DNA of 64,000 bases, taken from positions 1-64,000 of the forward strand of contig CACBLW010000002.1 in assembly GCA_902540265.1 (NCBI GenBank), written 5' to 3'. Source of the stretch: an uncultured Alphaproteobacteria bacterium (GTDB lineage: Bacteria > Pseudomonadota > Alphaproteobacteria > HIMB59 > GCA-002718135). Below are positions 11,969 through 55,792 of the stretch, one piece after another; the first letter of the stretch is position 1, and the number at the start of each line of letters is the position of its first letter. A program made the translations under genes and the position numbers. The notes below the pieces were generated by a model. The model was not told the origin of the DNA, ran no database searches, and was given only the letters and a program-made list of their open reading frames with translations.

Positions 11969-12016
11969 CTTTATTATTATTAATTAATATTATTTATTAA
12001 TTACCAGGGAGGAATT

Positions 12017-13012
12017 ATGAAAATTATTAAAATATTACTTATTACTTTATTTCTTTTTCCAGTTTCTATGCAAGCTTATGCTGCACCAACTGGACAAGAT
12101 CTAGGTGATAAATGGTGCTCAGATGTAAAAATGCATTTTTATGCTGGCGGTCCTGAGGCTGGTGGCTTTGCTGGAATAGTTGCAGCAGGAGCAATGAATG
12201 CAATAAGAGATACGGGCGCAGATGCTGAAATTATTTACTCAGAATGGGATTTTGAAAAAATGGTTCGTCAACTTAGAGAATCAGTTGGACTTGGAGTAGA
12301 TGCTATTGCAATGATGGGACATCCGGGAGATGAAGCTCTAATGCCTTTAGCAAAACAAGCTGCTGAAAAAGGTATTCTAATGACATATCAAAACGTTGAT
12401 CCATCAGGTGTAAGAGCAAAATTTGGTGGTGGATACGTAGGAGCAAATTTAGCAACTCAAGGTAAAGCTCTTGCAAGAGAAGCAATTAGACAATTTGGCT
12501 TCAAAGCTGGAGATCACGCTATAGTGATGGTTCCTATTGGAGATTACGCTAGAGCCCAAAGAGAAGATGGTGCAAGAATCATATTTGAAGAACACGGAAT
12601 GACAGTTACTGTTCTTGATGGACAACCAGCTTATGCTTCAGATCCGAATATGACTATCCCAGTTTTCTCAGCAGCGTTAAATGCAAATCCTGAAACAAAA
12701 GTAATTGTTCACTCTGGAAGTGATGTGATGAATGTTGCAGAAGGTATTGCCAAAGCTGCTGGTTATGGACCAAATGAGTTACTTCAAATTGGATTTGATA
12801 CTAGCCCACAAATTATGTCGGCATTTGAAAAAGGATATGTTCATCTAACATCTGATCAACAACCTTTCCTTCAAGGGTATCTTCCAGTGTTATCACTTTG
12901 TCAAACAGCTGTACTTGGTACTGGTGCAATAAACCAAGATACTGGTGCAGGATTTGTTGATACAAATAACTATCAAGCTGTTAAAGCTCTTGCTGATGCA
13001 GGCTTAAGATAG
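12017..13012 (+). CDS. Sugar ABC transporter periplasmic binding protein (ribose/fructose type, Peripla_BP_4)
   Basis: The protein has 331 residues. A signal peptide (MKIIKILLITLFLFPVSMQAYAA) precedes the two-lobed fold, with FYAGGPEAGGFAGIVAAG, the SEWDFEKMVRQLRESVG region and VHSGSDVMNVAEGIAKA. It belongs to the CUT2 class of sugar-binding proteins. The start is supported by agggagg four nt upstream of the ATG. It is the first gene of a binding protein-ATPase-permease set and is followed by a perfect hairpin at 13023-13048. The substrate cannot be read from sequence; downstream ThuA-like and Gfo/Idh genes suggest a sugar or glycoside. Confidence 0.92.
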   Translation: MKIIKILLITLFLFPVSMQAYAAPTGQDLGDKWCSDVKMHFYAGGPEAGGFAGIVAAGAMNAIRDTGADAEIIYSEWDFEKMVRQLRESVGLGVDAIAMMGHPGDEALMPLAKQAAEKGILMTYQNVDPSGVRAKFGGGYVGANLATQGKALAREAIRQFGFKAGDHAIVMVPIGDYARAQREDGARIIFEEHGMTVTVLDGQPAYASDPNMTIPVFSAALNANPETKVIVHSGSDVMNVAEGIAKAAGYGPNELLQIGFDTSPQIMSAFEKGYVHLTSDQQPFLQGYLPVLSLCQTAVLGTGAINQDTGAGFVDTNNYQAVKALADAGLR

Positions 13013-16690: not shown

Positions 16691-17686
16691 ATGTCAGATA
16701 AATTAGATAATGTTGATGACAAATGGTTTAGAGCCGAAATAAGTAAAAAAGATCTTAAAGAGTTATCAAAAAAAAGTGATTTAAAAGGATTACAGCATGT
16801 AACTATATATTTTATTCTTTTATTTATTTTTGGATATATGTCCGTAGCTACATGGGGAACTTGGTGGACAGTTTTATGGTTATGGCTTTACGGTGTTCTC
16901 TTTTATTCAAGTAACCCAATCTGGCATGAATGTGGACATAGAACTGCATTTAAATCAAAATTTTTAAATGAATTTTTTTATCAAATTGGTTCTTTTATGA
17001 CTGACTTTGAACCAACAAGATGGACTTGGAGTCATTTTAGACACCATAGCAATACCTCTTCTGTTGCTGACCCTCATGATTTTGAAGCAGCATTGTTCCA
17101 TGAATATCCAAGTCTAAAAAGTTTCCTATTTAGTTTTGCTCCATTTTATGAACTTATTAAGTTCAAGGACTCCTTTAAATTTGAAACTATAAAGCACGCG
17201 TTAGGAATGACGACACCTGTTATGAAGGAATGTATTCCTCAAGATGAGATTTGGAAATGTCGTCTTATTTCAAGAATACATGTTTCTTTATGGATCGCCT
17301 CTTTTGCTCTATCATTTTATTTAATGAACCCTCTTCCTGCATTGTTAATTTTTTTTCCTAGGTACTGGGGAAATATAATAAATATATTTAACATGACTCA
17401 GCATATTGGACTACCAGAAAATATCAAGGACCACAGGTACACTACAAGATCTGTTCGTTTTAATCCTATATTTAGTTTTCTATATTGGCATATGGAATAT
17501 CACGTAGAACATCATATGTTTCCTTCTGTTCCCTCTTATAATTTACCTAAGTTAAGTAATTTAATTAAAAATCAATTACCTAAGGCTAACACTAGTCTAT
17601 ACGATGCATATAAGGAAATTATACCAGCAATTATTAGACAACATAAGGATAATTCCTATTATATATCTAAAATTGTACCATCTTAA
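16691..17686 (+). CDS. Fatty-acid-desaturase-family membrane di-iron protein (copy 2)
   Basis: The protein has 331 residues and is paralogous to 9435-10457 over the whole length. The histidine boxes are WHECGHRTAF, HFRHHSNTSS and YHVEHHMFP. It shares KECIPQDEIWKC with RDCIPQDKIQDC of copy 1, as well as the C-terminal VPSYNLPKL and AYKEIIPAII. Hydrophobic stretches lie around residues 40-75 and 195-230. The two copies bracket the aldehyde dehydrogenase, CUT2 importer, ThuA and Gfo/Idh genes. Divergence between the copies is substantial, so the duplication is old or they arrived separately. Lipid desaturation is the default family role; substrate is not known. Confidence 0.88.
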   Translation: MSDKLDNVDDKWFRAEISKKDLKELSKKSDLKGLQHVTIYFILLFIFGYMSVATWGTWWTVLWLWLYGVLFYSSNPIWHECGHRTAFKSKFLNEFFYQIGSFMTDFEPTRWTWSHFRHHSNTSSVADPHDFEAALFHEYPSLKSFLFSFAPFYELIKFKDSFKFETIKHALGMTTPVMKECIPQDEIWKCRLISRIHVSLWIASFALSFYLMNPLPALLIFFPRYWGNIINIFNMTQHIGLPENIKDHRYTTRSVRFNPIFSFLYWHMEYHVEHHMFPSVPSYNLPKLSNLIKNQLPKANTSLYDAYKEIIPAIIRQHKDNSYYISKIVPS

Positions 17687-17754
17687 ATACATAATTAAGA
17701 TATATTTGCAGACAATTATTCATCAAAAATCAACAAATTTAAAACTGTTACAAA

Positions 17755-17819
17755 TTGACAGTAAATATCAACATTAGTAAGTCATTATAAATTGACAATA
17801 AGTAATGATCGGATATTTG
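17755..17819 (+). promoter_or_regulatory. Tandem TTGACA elements upstream of aglE-like gene
   Basis: Two copies of an aaattgaca(g/a)taa repeat occur 37 nt apart, with TTGACA at 17755-17760 and 17792-17797. The downstream copy has a possible -10 TATTTG at 17814-17819 (16-nt spacer), and translation starts at 17843. The upstream copy has only a poor -10 (taagtc, 17778-17783). The repeat could be tandem promoters or a promoter plus operator. The rest of the 155-nt intergenic region shows nothing else. Confidence 0.4.
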
Positions 17820-17842
17820 TTTTTTATAAATTAGGAGGATTA

Positions 17843-19153
17843 ATGAAATACTCAATTAAAAGTCTAATAGTATTTGTTTCTTCATTATTTTTAAGTTTCT
17901 CTGCGTTTGCAGGAGGTCATGCTTATACTGGTCCAGATTTAACTGGACAAAAGGTAGTTATGTTTGGTCCTTGGTTGTCACCAGAGCAAGAAACAATGAG
18001 AGAAGTAGGTGCTATATTTGAAAAAGCTACTGGAGCTACATTTGAATATGGTGGTTCAGATAGTTTTGAACAACAAGTAATGATCGATTTAAAAGCTGGA
18101 AGTGCTGCTGATCTAGTTGTATTTCCACAACCTGGTCTAGCTGCAAACGCAGCAGCCATGGGAGGATTAGTTCCTCTTGGAGATGATATCAAGCAAATGG
18201 TTTTAGATAACTATGCTGCTGGTCAATCATGGGTTGATCTTTCAACTTATGCCGATGAAAACGGTAATGATCAGTTTAATGCAATTTTCTTTAGAACAAA
18301 CGTAAAAAGTTTGGTTTGGTATTCACCAGATAACTTTGAAGATAATGGTTATGAAGTTCCAGGAACAATGGAAGAGTTAATTGCACTAACAAGACAAATG
18401 GCATCAGATGGAAATACTCCATGGTGTATTGGTCTAGGTTCAGGTGCAGCAACTGGTTGGCCTGCAACTGACTGGATGGAAGATATCATGTTAAGAACAC
18501 ATACGCCTGATGTCTATGACATGTGGGTATCCAATGAAATGCCTTTTAATGATCCAAGGGTTATTGAAGCAATGAATTTCTTTGGAACTTTTGCGTTGAA
18601 TGACAAGTTTGTAAATGGTGGATCTAAAGCAGTAGCAACTACTGATTTTAGAGATGCTCCAAATGGACTTTTCACTTCACCTGCAGAATGTATGATGCAC
18701 AGACAAGCTAGTTTTATACCTGCATTCTTCCCTGAAGGTGTAGAAGCTGGTGTTGACTATGATTTCTTTTATTTCCCTGCATATGCAACTAAAGATTTAG
18801 GAACTCCTGTACTTGGAGCTGGTACATTAGTAGCGGCTACTAATGATAACCAAGCAACAATAGAGTTCATTAAATTCTTAATGCATCCTGAAGCTCATGA
18901 ATATTGGATGGCTAAAGGTGGTTTCCTGACTCCTCACAAAGGTGTTGATGGAAGTAAATATGCTAGTGAAACTTTTAGAAAACTAGGTGAAATTTTAACA
19001 GGCGCAACAACGTTTAGATTTGATGCGTCAGACTTAATGCCTGGTGCTATTGGTGCTGGAACTTTCTGGACTGGTATGGTTGACTATACTAACGGAAAAT
19101 CTGCCCAAGATGTAGCAGATGCGATCCAAGATAGTTGGGACGCAATTAAGTAA
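17843..19153 (+). CDS. aglE: Alpha-glucoside ABC transporter binding protein, AglE-like
   Basis: The protein has 436 residues. A signal peptide (MKYSIKSLIVFVSSLFLSFSAFA) is followed by a family 1 extracellular solute-binding protein: VMFGPWLSPEQETMREVGAIFEKATG, DLKAGSAADLVVFPQPG, and PWCIGLGSGAATGWPATDWMEDIMLR. This pattern, with the long AglG-type permease downstream, matches the rhizobial AglE system for sucrose, maltose and trehalose. The track ORF starts 17 codons early; aggagg at 17833-17838 places the true ATG at 17843. A strong terminator-like hairpin follows before aglF. Confidence 0.88.
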   Translation: MKYSIKSLIVFVSSLFLSFSAFAGGHAYTGPDLTGQKVVMFGPWLSPEQETMREVGAIFEKATGATFEYGGSDSFEQQVMIDLKAGSAADLVVFPQPGLAANAAAMGGLVPLGDDIKQMVLDNYAAGQSWVDLSTYADENGNDQFNAIFFRTNVKSLVWYSPDNFEDNGYEVPGTMEELIALTRQMASDGNTPWCIGLGSGAATGWPATDWMEDIMLRTHTPDVYDMWVSNEMPFNDPRVIEAMNFFGTFALNDKFVNGGSKAVATTDFRDAPNGLFTSPAECMMHRQASFIPAFFPEGVEAGVDYDFFYFPAYATKDLGTPVLGAGTLVAATNDNQATIEFIKFLMHPEAHEYWMAKGGFLTPHKGVDGSKYASETFRKLGEILTGATTFRFDASDLMPGAIGAGTFWTGMVDYTNGKSAQDVADAIQDSWDAIK

Positions 19154-21342: not shown

Positions 21343-21445
21343 ATTCTAAAAAGTATTGATTTTTAAATAAATATACTTTTAAATGTAAATATATTTGTAT
21401 GATGATGTATTCATACACTTGAAAGATCGCTCAAAGGAGGATGAA

Positions 21446-22525
21446 GTGGCAGATATAAATATAAATACTGTTAATAAATATTTTGGAGACGTCCATGTAA
21501 TAAAGGATGTTTCTCTTGATATAAAAAGCCAATCATTTACAGTTCTAGTTGGTCCAAGTGGTTGTGGTAAATCAACTATGTTAAGAATGATAGCAGGACT
21601 GGAAGACATAAATTCAGGTACAATTTCAATTGATGGTCAAATAGTAAATGATTTACCGCCAAAGCAAAGAAATATTGCAATGGTGTTTCAATCGTATGCA
21701 TTATACCCTCACATGACTGTATTTGATAATATGGCTTTTGGTTTGAAATTAGAAAAAAGATCAAAAGATGAAATTAATGAAAGAGTTAATGAGGCAGCAA
21801 GAATTCTTCAAATAGAAGATTATCTTCAAAGAAAACCAAAACAACTTTCAGGTGGTCAAAGACAGCGTGTTGCTATTGGAAGAGCAATTACAAGAAAGCC
21901 AAAAGTTTTCTTATTTGATGAACCACTTTCAAACCTTGATGCTGCATTAAGGGTTCAAATGAGAGTTGAGTTAGCAAAACTGCATAATGAACTAGAAGCA
22001 ACAATGATCTATGTAACACACGATCAGACAGAAGCTATGACTTTAGCTGATGATATTGTTGTACTTGATACAGGTATAGTTTCACAAAAAGGATCACCGC
22101 TAGAACTTTATGATAGACCAAATAATATGTTCGTAGGTGGATTTATTGGATCGCCAAAAATGAACTTTATTTCAAGTAAGATATTAAGCAAAAGTTCTGA
22201 TGCTACAGAAGTTGATATTATGGGAATGTCAAAAATATCAGTCTCTAAAATGTCAGCGTCATCCTCAGAGGGTGATTCGGTAACTTTAGGTATTAGACCT
22301 GAGCACTTAGTAGTAAATGGTGATGCGGATGGATCTTGGGAAAGTAAAGTATTTGTTGTCGAAAAGCTTGGTGACGTTTCTTATCTATACCTTGAAAAAG
22401 ATGGAGAGCCATTAGTTGCTGAAACTGAAGGACATTCTGAAATCAAAGTTGGTGATACTGTAAAAGTAGGATTCCCTGCTGGAAGGTGTCAATTATTTGA
22501 TAGTTCAGGTGAAGCATTTAAATAA
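21446..22525 (+). CDS. aglK: Sugar ABC transporter ATP-binding protein, AglK/UgpC/MsmX-like
   Basis: The protein has 359 residues with Walker A GPSGCGKST, signature LSGGQRQRVAIGRA, Walker B VFLFDEPLSNLDA, switch THDQTEAMTLAD and a C-terminal TOBE regulatory domain (GIRPEHLVV). The track start (TTG at 21395) is too early. The GTG at 21446 (MADININTVNKYFGD) is preceded five nt upstream by a perfect aaaggagg at 21433-21440. ATPases of this type often energise several CUT1 importers, which matters because the amino-sugar importer at 32149-35170 has none nearby. A terminator hairpin follows at 22542. Confidence 0.93.
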   Translation: MADININTVNKYFGDVHVIKDVSLDIKSQSFTVLVGPSGCGKSTMLRMIAGLEDINSGTISIDGQIVNDLPPKQRNIAMVFQSYALYPHMTVFDNMAFGLKLEKRSKDEINERVNEAARILQIEDYLQRKPKQLSGGQRQRVAIGRAITRKPKVFLFDEPLSNLDAALRVQMRVELAKLHNELEATMIYVTHDQTEAMTLADDIVVLDTGIVSQKGSPLELYDRPNNMFVGGFIGSPKMNFISSKILSKSSDATEVDIMGMSKISVSKMSASSSEGDSVTLGIRPEHLVVNGDADGSWESKVFVVEKLGDVSYLYLEKDGEPLVAETEGHSEIKVGDTVKVGFPAGRCQLFDSSGEAFK

Positions 22526-22541
22526 TAGAATCGTATTAATT

Positions 22542-22577
22542 ATTGCCCCTAATATAAGGGGCAATACATCCCTTTTT
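22542..22577 (+). terminator. Intrinsic terminator of the agl operon
   Basis: attgcccct and aggggcaat form a perfect 9-bp stem around a 6-nt loop, 17 nt after the aglK stop. Six T residues follow after acatccc. The T run is not immediately adjacent, so termination may be moderate. Confidence 0.65.
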
Positions 22578-22604
22578 TAAAAATTTTCAATAAATATCAT
22601 AAAT

Positions 22605-22686
22605 TTAAACTAAAATAAAAACGGGCAGAGGTTTCATATTATTTCCTCCTATAAGAAGTATTCCTCTTATAAAACTTTTCTGCCCA
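22605..22686 (-). ncRNA. Structured element with exposed SD-AUG, also the glpD terminator
   Basis: On the minus strand an outer stem gggcaga/tctgccc (22679-22685 with 22623-22629) encloses a gttt/aaac segment and an inner stem tataaga/tcttata (22665-22671 with 22650-22656). A 15-nt one-sided bulge reads ggaggaaataatatg, and gttttt follows the outer stem. The fold therefore looks like an elaborate intrinsic terminator for glpD. Its bulge reproduces the AGGAGG-AUG signature of the binding-protein genes and would start a 10-codon ORF (MKPLPVFILV). The plus strand would instead expose uuuccuccu, an anti-SD sequence. Which strand, if any, makes a stable small RNA cannot be told. Confidence 0.4.
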
Positions 22687-22720
22687 CCAAATTTGAAAAG
22701 TTGTTTAAGAGGGATACCAA

Positions 22721-23872
22721 TTATAGTTTTTGTTTAGCAGTCCAAGTATTTTCCTTATTTATTGGAATGTGTTTATTAAGAGTTAAAAGAACATTTTCAG
22801 CTAATTTCCTGTATGTTGTTAATTTTCCCCCATAAATGCTTAGTAAAGGTGCTTGTGAACCATCCTCATTTAAATCAAATATATAGTCTCTAGTAACTTT
22901 TGATGCTTCTTTGAAATCTTCAATAAGTGGTCTAATTCCAGAATAAGAATTTACAATATCATCTCTCGTTATTTGTTTAATGAAATATTTATTTACTGAA
23001 TTTAATAAATAATCAATTTCACTTTCATCAATTTTTGGGTTTTCTGGTGAAACAACTTCTGTTTCGGTAGTACCAATAAGAGAATATTCATCTTTATAAG
23101 GTATGACAAAAATTATTCTGTTATCTTCATTTTGTAAAGTGAAAGCTTTTTTCTGACTATATAGACTTTTAGTTATTATGTGACTACCTTTTACAAGTCG
23201 AATTGATTTTTTTGAATTTAATTTAATGACATTGCTTAAGACTTCATTTATCCAAGGCCCGGCAGCATTTATAAGTATTTTAGATTGAAGTATAGTTTTA
23301 TCATCTAAAGTTATATCCCAAGTATTTTTATTTCGTTTTGCTTCTATTACTTTTCTATTTTGAATAATCCTAGCACCTTTTTTCTTTGCATCTTCAACAT
23401 TTAACTGAACAAGTTTTTTATCATCAACTTGTAAATCATAATATTGGAAACCAATTTTAAATTGATCTTTTAAAATATTTGGCATTTCCTTTTTAATATT
23501 TACAGTTGAAGATTTTGGTATAGTTATTTTACCACCAATATTATCGTATAAAAATAATCCTAATTTAATTAACCATTTAGGTCTTAAAGATTTTTGATAA
23601 GGTATAATAAAAGGTAATGGTGTTGTTATATTACTGGCAATTTTTTTAATTACTTCTCTTTCCTTGAGAGATTCACGTACAAGGCGAAATTCATAATTTT
23701 CAAGATACCTTAATCCACCATGTATTAATTTTGTAGACCAGGACGAGGTTGCTGAACCAACTTTGTTTTTTTCAACTAAACAAACTTTTAAATTTCTGCC
23801 TGATGCATCTCTAACAATTCCAGCACCATTAATCCCTCCGCCAATAACTAAAATATCAAAAGTTTCATTCAT
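22721..23872 (-). CDS. glpD: FAD-dependent glycerol-3-phosphate dehydrogenase, short form lacking the C-terminal domain
   Basis: The protein has 383 residues; typical GlpD has about 500. The FAD-binding start is DILVIGGGINGAGIVRDASGR, followed by the GlpD signature SSWSTKLIHGGLRYLENYEFRLVRESLKER and SIYGGKLTTYRKLAEN. The sequence stops after ENTWTAKQKL, exactly where the linker to the C-terminal helical DAO_C domain normally begins. The catalytic FAD domain looks complete. It oxidises glycerol-3-phosphate to DHAP at the membrane. The gene follows a HAD phosphatase gene after 7 nt on the same strand. Whether the short form is functional or recently truncated is open. Confidence 0.85.
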   Translation of the reverse strand: MNETFDILVIGGGINGAGIVRDASGRNLKVCLVEKNKVGSATSSWSTKLIHGGLRYLENYEFRLVRESLKEREVIKKIASNITTPLPFIIPYQKSLRPKWLIKLGLFLYDNIGGKITIPKSSTVNIKKEMPNILKDQFKIGFQYYDLQVDDKKLVQLNVEDAKKKGARIIQNRKVIEAKRNKNTWDITLDDKTILQSKILINAAGPWINEVLSNVIKLNSKKSIRLVKGSHIITKSLYSQKKAFTLQNEDNRIIFVIPYKDEYSLIGTTETEVVSPENPKIDESEIDYLLNSVNKYFIKQITRDDIVNSYSGIRPLIEDFKEASKVTRDYIFDLNEDGSQAPLLSIYGGKLTTYRKLAENVLLTLNKHIPINKENTWTAKQKL

Positions 23873-32148: not shown

Positions 32149-33360
32149 TTATTTGTATTCTTCTAACTCTTCAGCTGCTTCTGCAACTAAATCAGCAGGA
32201 TCACCTTCACCAAGAATTGCTCCTTGGATCATGTTATTCATAACTGATTGAAAAGCTTTATAGTCAACAAGTAAAGGTTCTGGTCCACCATCCCCTATTG
32301 CATCTATAAACATCATCCAATAATCATCATTGTATGGTTCTTCACTTCCTATAACATCATATTGCATAATTGGAGTTAAGCCCCATTCAGTATCTAGTTT
32401 ATACTGCCATTCTGGAGATGTAACCATAGCCGCAAACTTATTTGCCATTTCCTCATTTCCAGTATTATTAAATACAGCAATACTATCAGTGATTAATAGA
32501 GTTCCTTGTTTACCTTGTGGTCCAGCAGGAATCCTAACAGTTTTCATATTAAGATCTTCATTATGAGTACCTCGACCCCATGGTCCATCAATATACATTG
32601 CAATTTTTTTATCATTAAGTAGGTCTCTTAATTGTGATCTCTCATATGCTAACGGACCCTCTTGAGCTACATTTGCTAATTTTCCATAAAATGCTAGAGC
32701 CTCAACTGTGTTTGAACTATTCAAAGTAATAGTATTTGTATCAGGATCAATTACTTGACCGCCATTACTATACAAATAATTTAAAAACTGATGCATAGTG
32801 TTATCAAAATCTTTACCAGTTAGACCTATTCCAGCAACACCAGGCACATTATTAGTTACAGCTTCTGCCATTGAGTATAATTCATCCCATGTTTCAGGAC
32901 CCTCACATGCAACACCAGCTTCTTCTAATAAATCACAATTCATAAATAGAGCTTTAGTAGAAAATGCTCTTGGATATCCCCATACTTTACCTAAATGTGA
33001 AACAGTGTTTAAAATACCTGGTTGATACATATTAATCTGTGATTGTGGAATATCAACATTAATTATATGACCATTTTCTGCAAGGCCCTTTAAAGTTCTT
33101 GAACCAACATATGCTAAGTCAACTGGATCACCAGCAATAGCTAAATTTATAACTTTATCCTGACATGTTCCCCATGGAACTGCTTCCCATTTTATAGTAA
33201 CACCTGGGTTAGCACTTTCAAATTCAGCTGCTACATCCATATCTGCTTGTCTGATTTCTCCGCCACATAGAATGCCATGTAATTCTTGTGAGTTTGCACT
33301 GAAACCATAAGACAGAAAAAATATGAAAGAAGCAATTGAAGTAATTTTTAGAAATTTCAT
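32149..33360 (-). CDS. Sugar ABC transporter binding protein (CUT1), amino-sugar oligosaccharide operon
   Basis: The protein has 403 residues. A signal peptide (MKFLKITSIASFIFFLSYGFSANS) precedes a family 1 extracellular solute-binding protein with FESANPGVTIKWEAVPWGTCQDKVINLAIAGDPVDLAYVG and the MYIDGPWGRGTH block. The track ORF starts 22 codons upstream; the start at 33360 is fixed by ggagg five nt before it. The neighbouring GH20, NagA and NagB-II-like genes suggest N-acetylhexosamine oligosaccharides as ligand. It lies downstream of both permease genes with a 72-nt gap that could hold its own promoter. Confidence 0.9.
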   Translation of the reverse strand: MKFLKITSIASFIFFLSYGFSANSQELHGILCGGEIRQADMDVAAEFESANPGVTIKWEAVPWGTCQDKVINLAIAGDPVDLAYVGSRTLKGLAENGHIINVDIPQSQINMYQPGILNTVSHLGKVWGYPRAFSTKALFMNCDLLEEAGVACEGPETWDELYSMAEAVTNNVPGVAGIGLTGKDFDNTMHQFLNYLYSNGGQVIDPDTNTITLNSSNTVEALAFYGKLANVAQEGPLAYERSQLRDLLNDKKIAMYIDGPWGRGTHNEDLNMKTVRIPAGPQGKQGTLLITDSIAVFNNTGNEEMANKFAAMVTSPEWQYKLDTEWGLTPIMQYDVIGSEEPYNDDYWMMFIDAIGDGGPEPLLVDYKAFQSVMNNMIQGAILGEGDPADLVAEAAEELEEYK

Positions 33361-33432
33361 AATTCCTCCGTAAATATAAAAGACCGTAGCATTATTAGAT
33401 AGGCGCAAGCAAGAGTGTTTTTGCAAAATTTA

Positions 33433-54664: not shown

Positions 54665-55768
54665 TTAGTTACCCATCCAAGCTGAGTAACGTTCACTAAT
54701 TTCTGCACCATTATCTGACCACCATTGTGGATCATTAACGATAGAAACTTTTAAACGCTCAGGAGTATTAGGCATGTGAGGCATAATATCTACTCCTCCA
54801 GGACCCCAAGGTTCGTTTGCTTCAATTATAGGTATACCTGAAGCTCTCATTGGTCCATAAGTAATATATTTTGCCTGTTCAGCTTGTGACTCAGGGCTTG
54901 AAGCGTGCATCATGAAATCAATAGCAGCATCTCTGTTAGGAGCTCCAGTTGTTAAACATAAATACTCTTGGTCTAATACTTGACCTTCCCAAATATATTC
55001 AAAGTTTTCTCCTTCAGCAAGGTTAGCTGCACCAACACGACCATTATAAGCAACAGCCATTATAACTTCACCACTTTTTACTAATTCAAGTGGTTGTGAG
55101 CCTGCAGACCAAAATACTACATGATCTTTAATTTTATCCATTACTTCAAAAGCTCTATCAATTGCACCAGTTTGATTTGCAAAAACCGTTGGTACTGCAT
55201 TTGGTTCAACTCCATCTGCAACTAAAGCTTTCTGAATAATTCCATCAGCCCAAGTGTGGATACCTCTTTTGCCTGGAAATTTTTCCACATCAAAAAAGTC
55301 AGCCATACTATCAGGTTTTTCACCTGGGAAAGCGTCTGGGTCGTAGAATACAACATAAGTCCAGAAAATTTGTGGTACACAACAGTCCCAACCCGAATGG
55401 TAATTTAATCCATTATTTTCCATATCTTCTGCAATTGATTCTCCATTAGGTCCCGGTACACCCATTGATGCGATTTCATCTGAAATATCTTCAAATAATC
55501 CTTCATCACAACCAGTAATAGCATCAGCTGGTAGTACATCAACTAAGTCCCAAGTCACGTTTCCACTTTCAACTTGAGCTCTTGTTTCACCTAAACCACC
55601 GTTATAGTTTTCAAAAATAATTGAACTTGGGTCAGAATAAGTGTCAGCATATGCTTTCTTTTGACTTTCTGTATAAGCACCACCCCATGAAGCAACAGTT
55701 ACAGCATTAGCTACAAATGGCGCAAAAATGATAGATGCGAATAAGAAGGCTTTTGTAAATTTAGACAT
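54665..55768 (-). CDS. ABC transporter periplasmic binding protein (PotD/spermidine-putrescine type)
   Basis: The protein has 367 residues. A signal peptide (MSKFTKAFLFASIIFAPFVANA) is followed by VTVASWGGAYTESQKKAYADTY and the PotD-like DLVDVLPADAI, PDSMADFFDVEKFPGKRG and YNGRVGAANLAEGENFEYIW blocks. An SD of aggagga lies six nt before the ATG. The pattern resembles binding proteins for polyamines, opines or amino-compounds, and the ligand cannot be told. It is transcribed after the ATPase gene and before the permease genes. Confidence 0.91.
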   Translation of the reverse strand: MSKFTKAFLFASIIFAPFVANAVTVASWGGAYTESQKKAYADTYSDPSSIIFENYNGGLGETRAQVESGNVTWDLVDVLPADAITGCDEGLFEDISDEIASMGVPGPNGESIAEDMENNGLNYHSGWDCCVPQIFWTYVVFYDPDAFPGEKPDSMADFFDVEKFPGKRGIHTWADGIIQKALVADGVEPNAVPTVFANQTGAIDRAFEVMDKIKDHVVFWSAGSQPLELVKSGEVIMAVAYNGRVGAANLAEGENFEYIWEGQVLDQEYLCLTTGAPNRDAAIDFMMHASSPESQAEQAKYITYGPMRASGIPIIEANEPWGPGGVDIMPHMPNTPERLKVSIVNDPQWWSDNGAEISERYSAWMGN

Positions 55769-55792
55769 ATATATCCTCCTATTTTAATTAAT

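Follow-up and report, generated by a model that had tools for sequence, protein, structure and literature searches.

Between the convergent ends of an ABC transporter ATPase gene and a glpD-like gene lies a set of nested stems enclosing a bulge, found in the window (the whole 64,000-nt stretch of DNA from an uncultured alphaproteobacterium analysed here). The locus raises the question of whether these stems form a terminator, a minus-strand decoy of ribosome-binding sites or a plus-strand regulatory RNA. Genome comparison demonstrated that the element is real and conserved, and that it belongs to the plus strand, with a putative promoter box and with complementarity to its predicted targets. 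The best explanation, to which we assign a probability of about 0.8, is that positions 22623-22685 of the plus strand, possibly extending to ~22730, encode an independently transcribed, Hfq-independent, trans-acting small RNA (sRNA) that would repress binding-protein mRNAs. By the same comparison, this putative sRNA appears confined to one family of AEGEAN-169/HIMB59-type marine Alphaproteobacteria.

A conserved bulged hairpin and its distribution

The plus-strand fold of 22600-22695 consists of three coaxial helices, GGGCAGA/TCTGCCC, GGTTT/AAACT and TATAAGA/TCTTATA, with a one-sided 15-nt bulge at 22635-22649, CATATTATTTCCTCC, whose reverse complement is GGAGGAAATAATATG. Its folding energy of -18.1 kcal/mol (z = -3.7) was equalled by 0 of 200 shuffles, and the description of nested stems with a 15-nt bulge given by the sequence-only reading was therefore correct; the minus-strand fold was less distinctive (z = -2.1). 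The letters of 22623-22685 are GGGCAGAGGTTT CATATTATTTCCTCC TATAAGAAGTATTCCTCTTATA AAACTTTTCTGCCC, and the following parts were assigned within and around this core.

22611-22616, plus strand: -10 promoter hexamer TAAAAT, 6 nt 5′ of the first stem base
22623-22685, plus strand: sRNA core, a 63-nt bulged hairpin, from the fold, alignments and covariance model matches
22623-22629, plus strand: 5′ arm of the outer stem, GGGCAGA, with pair variants G-C/A-U/G-U and C-G/U-A
22635-22649, plus strand: first anti-Shine-Dalgarno (anti-SD) region, the 15-nt bulge CATATTATTTCCTCC, from the fold and complementarity to binding-protein starts
22661-22668, plus strand: second anti-SD stretch, TTCCTCTT, in the apical loop, from the alignment and duplex energies
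22679-22685, plus strand: 3′ arm of the outer stem, TCTGCCC, followed by a U-run (intrinsic terminator) in relatives without adjoining glpD
22695-22717, plus strand: downstream arm GAAAAGTTGTTTAAGAGGGATAC, which can pair with 22658-22680, seen in loci adjoining glpD

The earlier reading had made the standing of the element depend on the conservation of its bulge, and TTTCCTCC within the bulge proved to be invariant across all aligned members. The TTCCTC of the apical loop is kept in all of them except L176, where it is absent, and L177, where it carries one change. Identity over the element columns was 96%, against 64-77% in the flanks. Pairing of 22695-22717 with 22658-22680 gives a longer alternative hairpin that overlaps the glpD end and, in several relatives with adjoining glpD (e.g. 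L029), has a U-run behind it; it is the probable plus-strand terminator where glpD adjoins, and in group 1 it would mask the second of the anti-SD stretches. In such genomes the sRNA can thus refold its 3′ half into the longer hairpin, and a transcript reading through from glpD and the sRNA are antisense to each other.

The covariance search of relatives that had been proposed as a check was carried out with a plus-strand model and found the element, in one copy each, in 89 of the 162 genomes of the order (E 1e-3 to 2e-17), which span five genera, all in the window's family. No match was obtained in the sister-family (HIMB59-like) genomes among these 162, and the related ATPase genes of HIMB59-family genomes (81% identical in G038) had no element behind them. 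The sister family is, we infer, the one to which HIMB59 belongs, in which case the order would be AEGEAN-169/SAR11 subclade V (PMC10308909). A class-wide search of 385 genomes returned a single match outside the family, at E = 0.064, which was taken as chance. By pattern search, the exact core occurred in 75 further named genome records, nearly all labelled as uncultured marine Alphaproteobacteria from single cells or metagenomes, among them Pelagibacteraceae AG-337-I02 and MarineAlpha5_Bin5; the same pattern was not found in viral contigs. A search with the glpD-like protein yielded 30 loci, and the element stood beside the gene in all 26 from the window's genus. No Rfam family reached its gathering threshold in the window, and a permissive Rfam search of 22400-22900 gave no alpha-r family up to E = 5. 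We found no description of the element in the literature, and the relevant passages of two marine RNA surveys (PMC5069720, PMC2704228) make no mention of it.

Strand, promoter and genomic context

The base changes among relatives were compared for the two strands. Read on the plus strand, all 180 stem cells (100%) among 14 distinct cores are paired, with U-A changed to U-G in six sequences, and with an outer-stem G-C changed to A-U in five and to G-U in one; pair 2 of the outer stem is accordingly G-C, A-U or G-U, and pair 4 is C-G, or U-A in L169. Read on the minus strand, the plus-strand G-U pairs turn into C.A mismatches, leaving 96.1% of the cells paired. After divergent genera were added, five pairs carried changes on both sides, versus 1.4 in shuffles (0 of 500), in an alignment that includes one weak opposite-strand match (L025). 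Compensatory changes, on which the earlier reading had likewise made the element depend, are therefore present in the relatives.

A TANNNT box precedes the first stem base by 5-7 nt in 73 of the 78 distinct loci, while its frequency at other offsets was 5% on average and 26% at most. The commonest boxes are TAAAAT, TATTAT and TATAAT, and the letters that separate them from the stem vary freely. A -10 box at a fixed distance followed by free spacer letters argues for a plus-strand promoter with a transcript starting at the stem, so that transcription would begin at the first G of GGGCAG (22623) behind the element's own -10 box. A U-rich tail stands directly or closely 3′ of the outer stem in six divergent loci (L170, L171, L173, L174, L179 and L254). 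The G-U and compensatory changes, the -10 box and the U-tails all fit a plus-strand transcript.

The element is flanked by two genes.

21395-22525, plus strand: ABC transporter ATPase of the UgpC/MalK type (PF00005, TOBE_2, OB_MalK)
22721-23872, minus strand: GlpD-like FAD oxidoreductase (PF01266), the convergent neighbour in most of the window's genus

The ATPase gene, the last of a binding protein-permease-permease-ATPase operon, is the constant upstream neighbour on the same strand in every genus examined, and ends ~100 nt upstream of the element wherever the flank is long enough to show it. In loci of other genera (L167, L170-L173, L175, L176, L178 and L179) glpD is not adjacent, and unrelated genes take its place. 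The constant ATPase neighbour, together with the replacement of glpD elsewhere, ties the sRNA gene to the 3′ flank of the sugar ABC operon. The glpD-like gene itself encodes 383 aa in the window's genus, compared with ~478-485 aa for related frames of the sister family, and probably represents a truncated GlpD or another FAD oxidoreductase related to it.

Predicted pairing with binding-protein mRNAs

The bulge (CAUAUUAUUUCCUCC) is complementary to the SD-to-AUG stretches of binding-protein genes. The four binding-protein start sites that had been quoted in the sequence-only reading are present, and all four genes encode Pfam binding-protein domains.

17823-17848, plus strand: start of the sugar-binding protein in the same operon as the ATPase (PF01547/PF13416), AGGAGGATTAATG at 17843, rank 34 of 795 by seed duplex
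11997-12022, plus strand: start of a Peripla_BP_4 binding protein (Pfam), GGGAGGAATTATG at 12017, rank 21 of 795 by seed duplex
33355-33380, minus strand: start of an SBP_bac_1 binding protein (Pfam), CGGAGGAATTATG at 33360, rank 8 of 795 when folding of the whole sRNA is included
55763-55788, minus strand: start of an SBP_bac_8 binding protein (Pfam), AGGAGGATATATATG at 55768, rank 9 of 795 by seed duplex

The ranks refer to 795 genes called from the window and 40 further stretches (L181-L220) of the same genome, 26 of them solute-binding proteins confirmed by Pfam and 769 other genes. The mean seed duplex energy was -16.0 kcal/mol for the binding proteins versus -7.4 for the others, which separated the two sets with an AUC of 0.916 (p = 2.6e-13), and the seven best seed duplexes among the 795 genes all belonged to solute-binding proteins. 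Composition-shuffled seeds gave an AUC of 0.58, none of 300 being as high as the real seed. When UUUCCUCC was kept and only the flanks were shuffled, the AUC was 0.86 and 5 of 300 controls were as high; any CCUCC-bearing RNA therefore separates binding proteins fairly well, and specificity beyond the SD is modest. The second anti-SD stretch alone gave an AUC of 0.85. With intramolecular folding of the sRNA included, the AUC was 0.79 and binding proteins took the first four places; with shuffled apical loops it was 0.47. The complementarity of the plus-strand CU-rich stretches to binding-protein SDs, and the AbcR-like logic that the earlier reading had seen in it, are thus strongly supported by comparative and statistical evidence.

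This separation follows in part from the concentration of strong SDs in binding-protein genes, where they were present in 18 of 26 (37 of 769 in the others), with GGAGGAA itself in 13 of 26 versus 2 of 769. In the AT-rich window genome a strong SD is largely a mark of periplasmic binding-protein genes. Binding-protein genes of the sister family, which lacks the sRNA, have similarly strong SDs, indicating that the SDs did not arise for the sRNA, which would rather exploit a pre-existing signature. Allowing at most one mismatch to GGAGGAAATAATATGAA, the only other sites in the window genome are two Pfam-supported binding-protein starts: that of a peptide-binding gene at C5:15107 matches exactly, and that of an amino-acid-binding gene at C4:3427 differs by one mismatch. 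Across 61 genomes, the further seed-complement matches that were inspected, a subset assigned by N-terminal sequences, begin betaine-type, amino-acid, branched-chain amino-acid and sugar binding proteins, and a backward control pattern had no match in the same 61 genomes. In G061 the seed is changed, and in a comparison of four binding proteins only, its own seed paired with its own targets no better than the canonical seed.

General features of a trans-acting base-pairing sRNA, namely an own promoter, a terminator, a conserved unpaired seed and complementary targets, are all present at the sequence level. In the proposed mechanism, the expressed closed hairpin would display the anti-SD UUCAUAUUAUUUCCUCC and the second stretch UUCCUC, and these would pair with the SD-to-AUG region of mRNAs that encode the periplasmic solute-binding proteins used by ABC-type and related uptake systems. 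Such pairing would block ribosome loading and lower binding-protein synthesis, in response to a signal that in some relatives may be a sugar. Selectivity would come from the near confinement of very strong GGAGGAA-type SDs to binding-protein genes in the window genome. A search for Hfq (PF17209) was negative in all 61 genomes examined from the order, of which 10 are at least 90% complete, and positive in control genomes; if the sRNA works, it would do so without Hfq, and a closed hairpin with a long seed suits such Hfq-free action. AEGEAN-169/HIMB59 bacteria are abundant in the surface ocean, rely on ABC uptake of high affinity and are believed, as other streamlined oligotrophs are, to be poor in regulators. 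A single-copy sRNA addressing most binding-protein mRNAs, apparently without Hfq, would represent a compact global control of nutrient uptake.

Alternative explanations for the locus were weighed against this evidence. That the hairpin is only a terminator, serving either minus-strand glpD alone or, bidirectionally, the ATPase operon as well, with an incidental SD-like bulge, accords with its position between convergent genes, with the minus-side T run in the window genome, on which the claim that it is at least the glpD terminator had rested, and with the longer hairpin reaching to the glpD end. Among the genomes compared, however, that run on the glpD strand occurs in the window genome only, relatives reading CTCTGCCCATNATNATTTTAG instead, and a Rho-independent glpD terminator would carry a U run tied to glpD. 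The glpD-terminator reading fails because the element persists in several genera in which glpD is replaced, and a terminator needs neither the invariant unpaired UUUCCUCC nor an upstream -10 box; this explanation is very improbable and already largely refuted. About as improbable is a minus-strand decoy or sponge, in which the glpD 3′ region would expose GGAGGAAATAATATG and sequester an anti-SD sRNA or ribosomes. The minus strand does carry a perfect SD-ATG copy, a transcript reading through from glpD would be antisense to the entire sRNA, and sponges are known in Alphaproteobacteria, as CrfA against SisA (PMC12559287); but minus-strand pairing is broken where plus-strand G-U pairs occur, promoter and terminators lie on the plus strand, glpD is no constant partner, and the minus sequence showed no pairing preference for binding-protein starts (AUC 0.59 for the seed and 0.48 for the whole RNA folded in). 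Of the two-strand interpretation offered by the sequence-only reading, the plus-strand anti-SD half is therefore upheld, and the decoy and glpD-terminator halves are not.

A minus-strand leader peptide or small protein has a negligible probability: although an ideal-SD ATG opens a ~7-17-codon frame in every copy examined, the codons are unconserved and the frame shifts among members (ATGAACCCTCTGCCC versus ATGAAAACTCTCTGCCC) while the stem is kept, and such a peptide was rejected on account of its variable frames. A plus-strand sRNA with another role, as a protein-binding RNA or as a generic anti-SD that titrates strong SDs or initiating ribosomes, would explain why CCUCC alone goes far towards separating the targets (AUC 0.86 after shuffling of the flanks) and would agree with the closed, highly conserved hairpin. 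It is nevertheless unlikely, considering that the seed flanks improve the match (5 of 300 controls as good), that the inspected 17-nt near-perfect complements sit at binding-protein starts, and that strong SDs are rare outside binding proteins.

Comparable sRNAs and a possible link to the sugar operon

The preferred reading, a trans-acting repressor of binding-protein mRNAs, resembles known alphaproteobacterial sRNAs. AbcR1 and AbcR2 (alpha-r15) of Rhizobiales are trans-acting sRNAs that direct two unpaired anti-SD motifs against the ribosome sites of ABC binding-protein mRNAs (PMC8844928). The element likewise has unpaired anti-SD motifs, UUUCCUCC in the bulge and UUCCUC in the loop, and is predicted in silico to target ABC binding-protein mRNAs at the ribosome site. 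It differs from AbcR in having no sequence or structure match in Rfam, in its single-copy 63-nt core as against 114-121 nt, in that no Hfq gene was found in the 61 genomes searched, whereas AbcR is Hfq-bound, and in its locus downstream of an ABC ATPase gene, that of AbcR being next to the lsrB/vtlR regulator gene. NfeR1 (alpha-r14) of Sinorhizobium has redundant anti-SD motifs and validated targets that encode periplasmic binding proteins, and is described without the Hfq interaction of AbcR (PMC8844928). Like NfeR1, the element has anti-SD motifs, here predicted to pair with binding-protein mRNAs; no Hfq gene was found in the 61 genomes, and the element, if active, would act without Hfq. NfeR1, however, carries three identical motifs in 115 nt, compared with two unlike ones, one long and one short, in a closed 63-nt hairpin here, and there is again no Rfam match and a different locus. 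As far as tested, the element would work like AbcR and NfeR1 and belong to neither, and it would then be an independent case of the anti-SD/binding-protein logic known from these rhizobial sRNAs. GcvB of enterobacteria and LhrC of Listeria also repress many uptake or binding-protein mRNAs via one unpaired region, GcvB with a GU-rich region and Hfq, but their sequences are unrelated to the element. In CrfA/SisA (alpha-R8) of Caulobacter, sRNAs control nutrient uptake through a sponge logic (PMC12559287) comparable to the minus-strand idea, but the system is Hfq-based, targets TonB receptors and has no sequence match to the element.

In several relatives a LacI-family regulator adjoins the same sugar operon. 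Of 78 loci, 15 have the palindrome CCAAAACGTTTTGG or a close variant in front of the sRNA, its end falling exactly 42-43 or 15 nt short of the first stem base. G035 has further CCAAAACGTTTTGG matches only ~6 kb off, between a LacI-family gene (PF00356) and the first gene of the operon, which encodes the binding protein; in G130 and G129 the sole other exact match is likewise ~6 kb away in the interval between the LacI gene and the binding-protein gene. The HIMB59-like G037 lacks the sRNA but has the operator at its LacI gene. For part of the family, the sRNA therefore appears to be in the regulon of the neighbouring sugar operon, and the position and type of the palindrome suggest control by LacI. 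In the window genome, neither a CCAAAACGTTTTGG operator nor a close LacI homologue was found (17650-17843; best match C6:49783-50640, 25% identity), and there, as in other operator-less members, the input to the sRNA would differ.

Where the sRNA promoter does carry the operator for the LacI-family regulator of the neighbouring sugar operon, taking up one sugar would also bring about a lowering of other uptake. We tentatively propose, as a possibility we hold somewhat short of even, a transporter-priority switch in which a LacI-family sugar sensor runs one sugar ABC operon together with an sRNA, located behind the last gene of that operon, that represses the binding proteins of other uptake systems; if so, finding one sugar would lower the investment in other transporters. 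At loci L332-L336, L338 and L342, CCAAAACGTTTTGG marks the divergent LacI/sugar binding-protein promoter and, for part of the family, the sRNA promoter 6 kb away as well.
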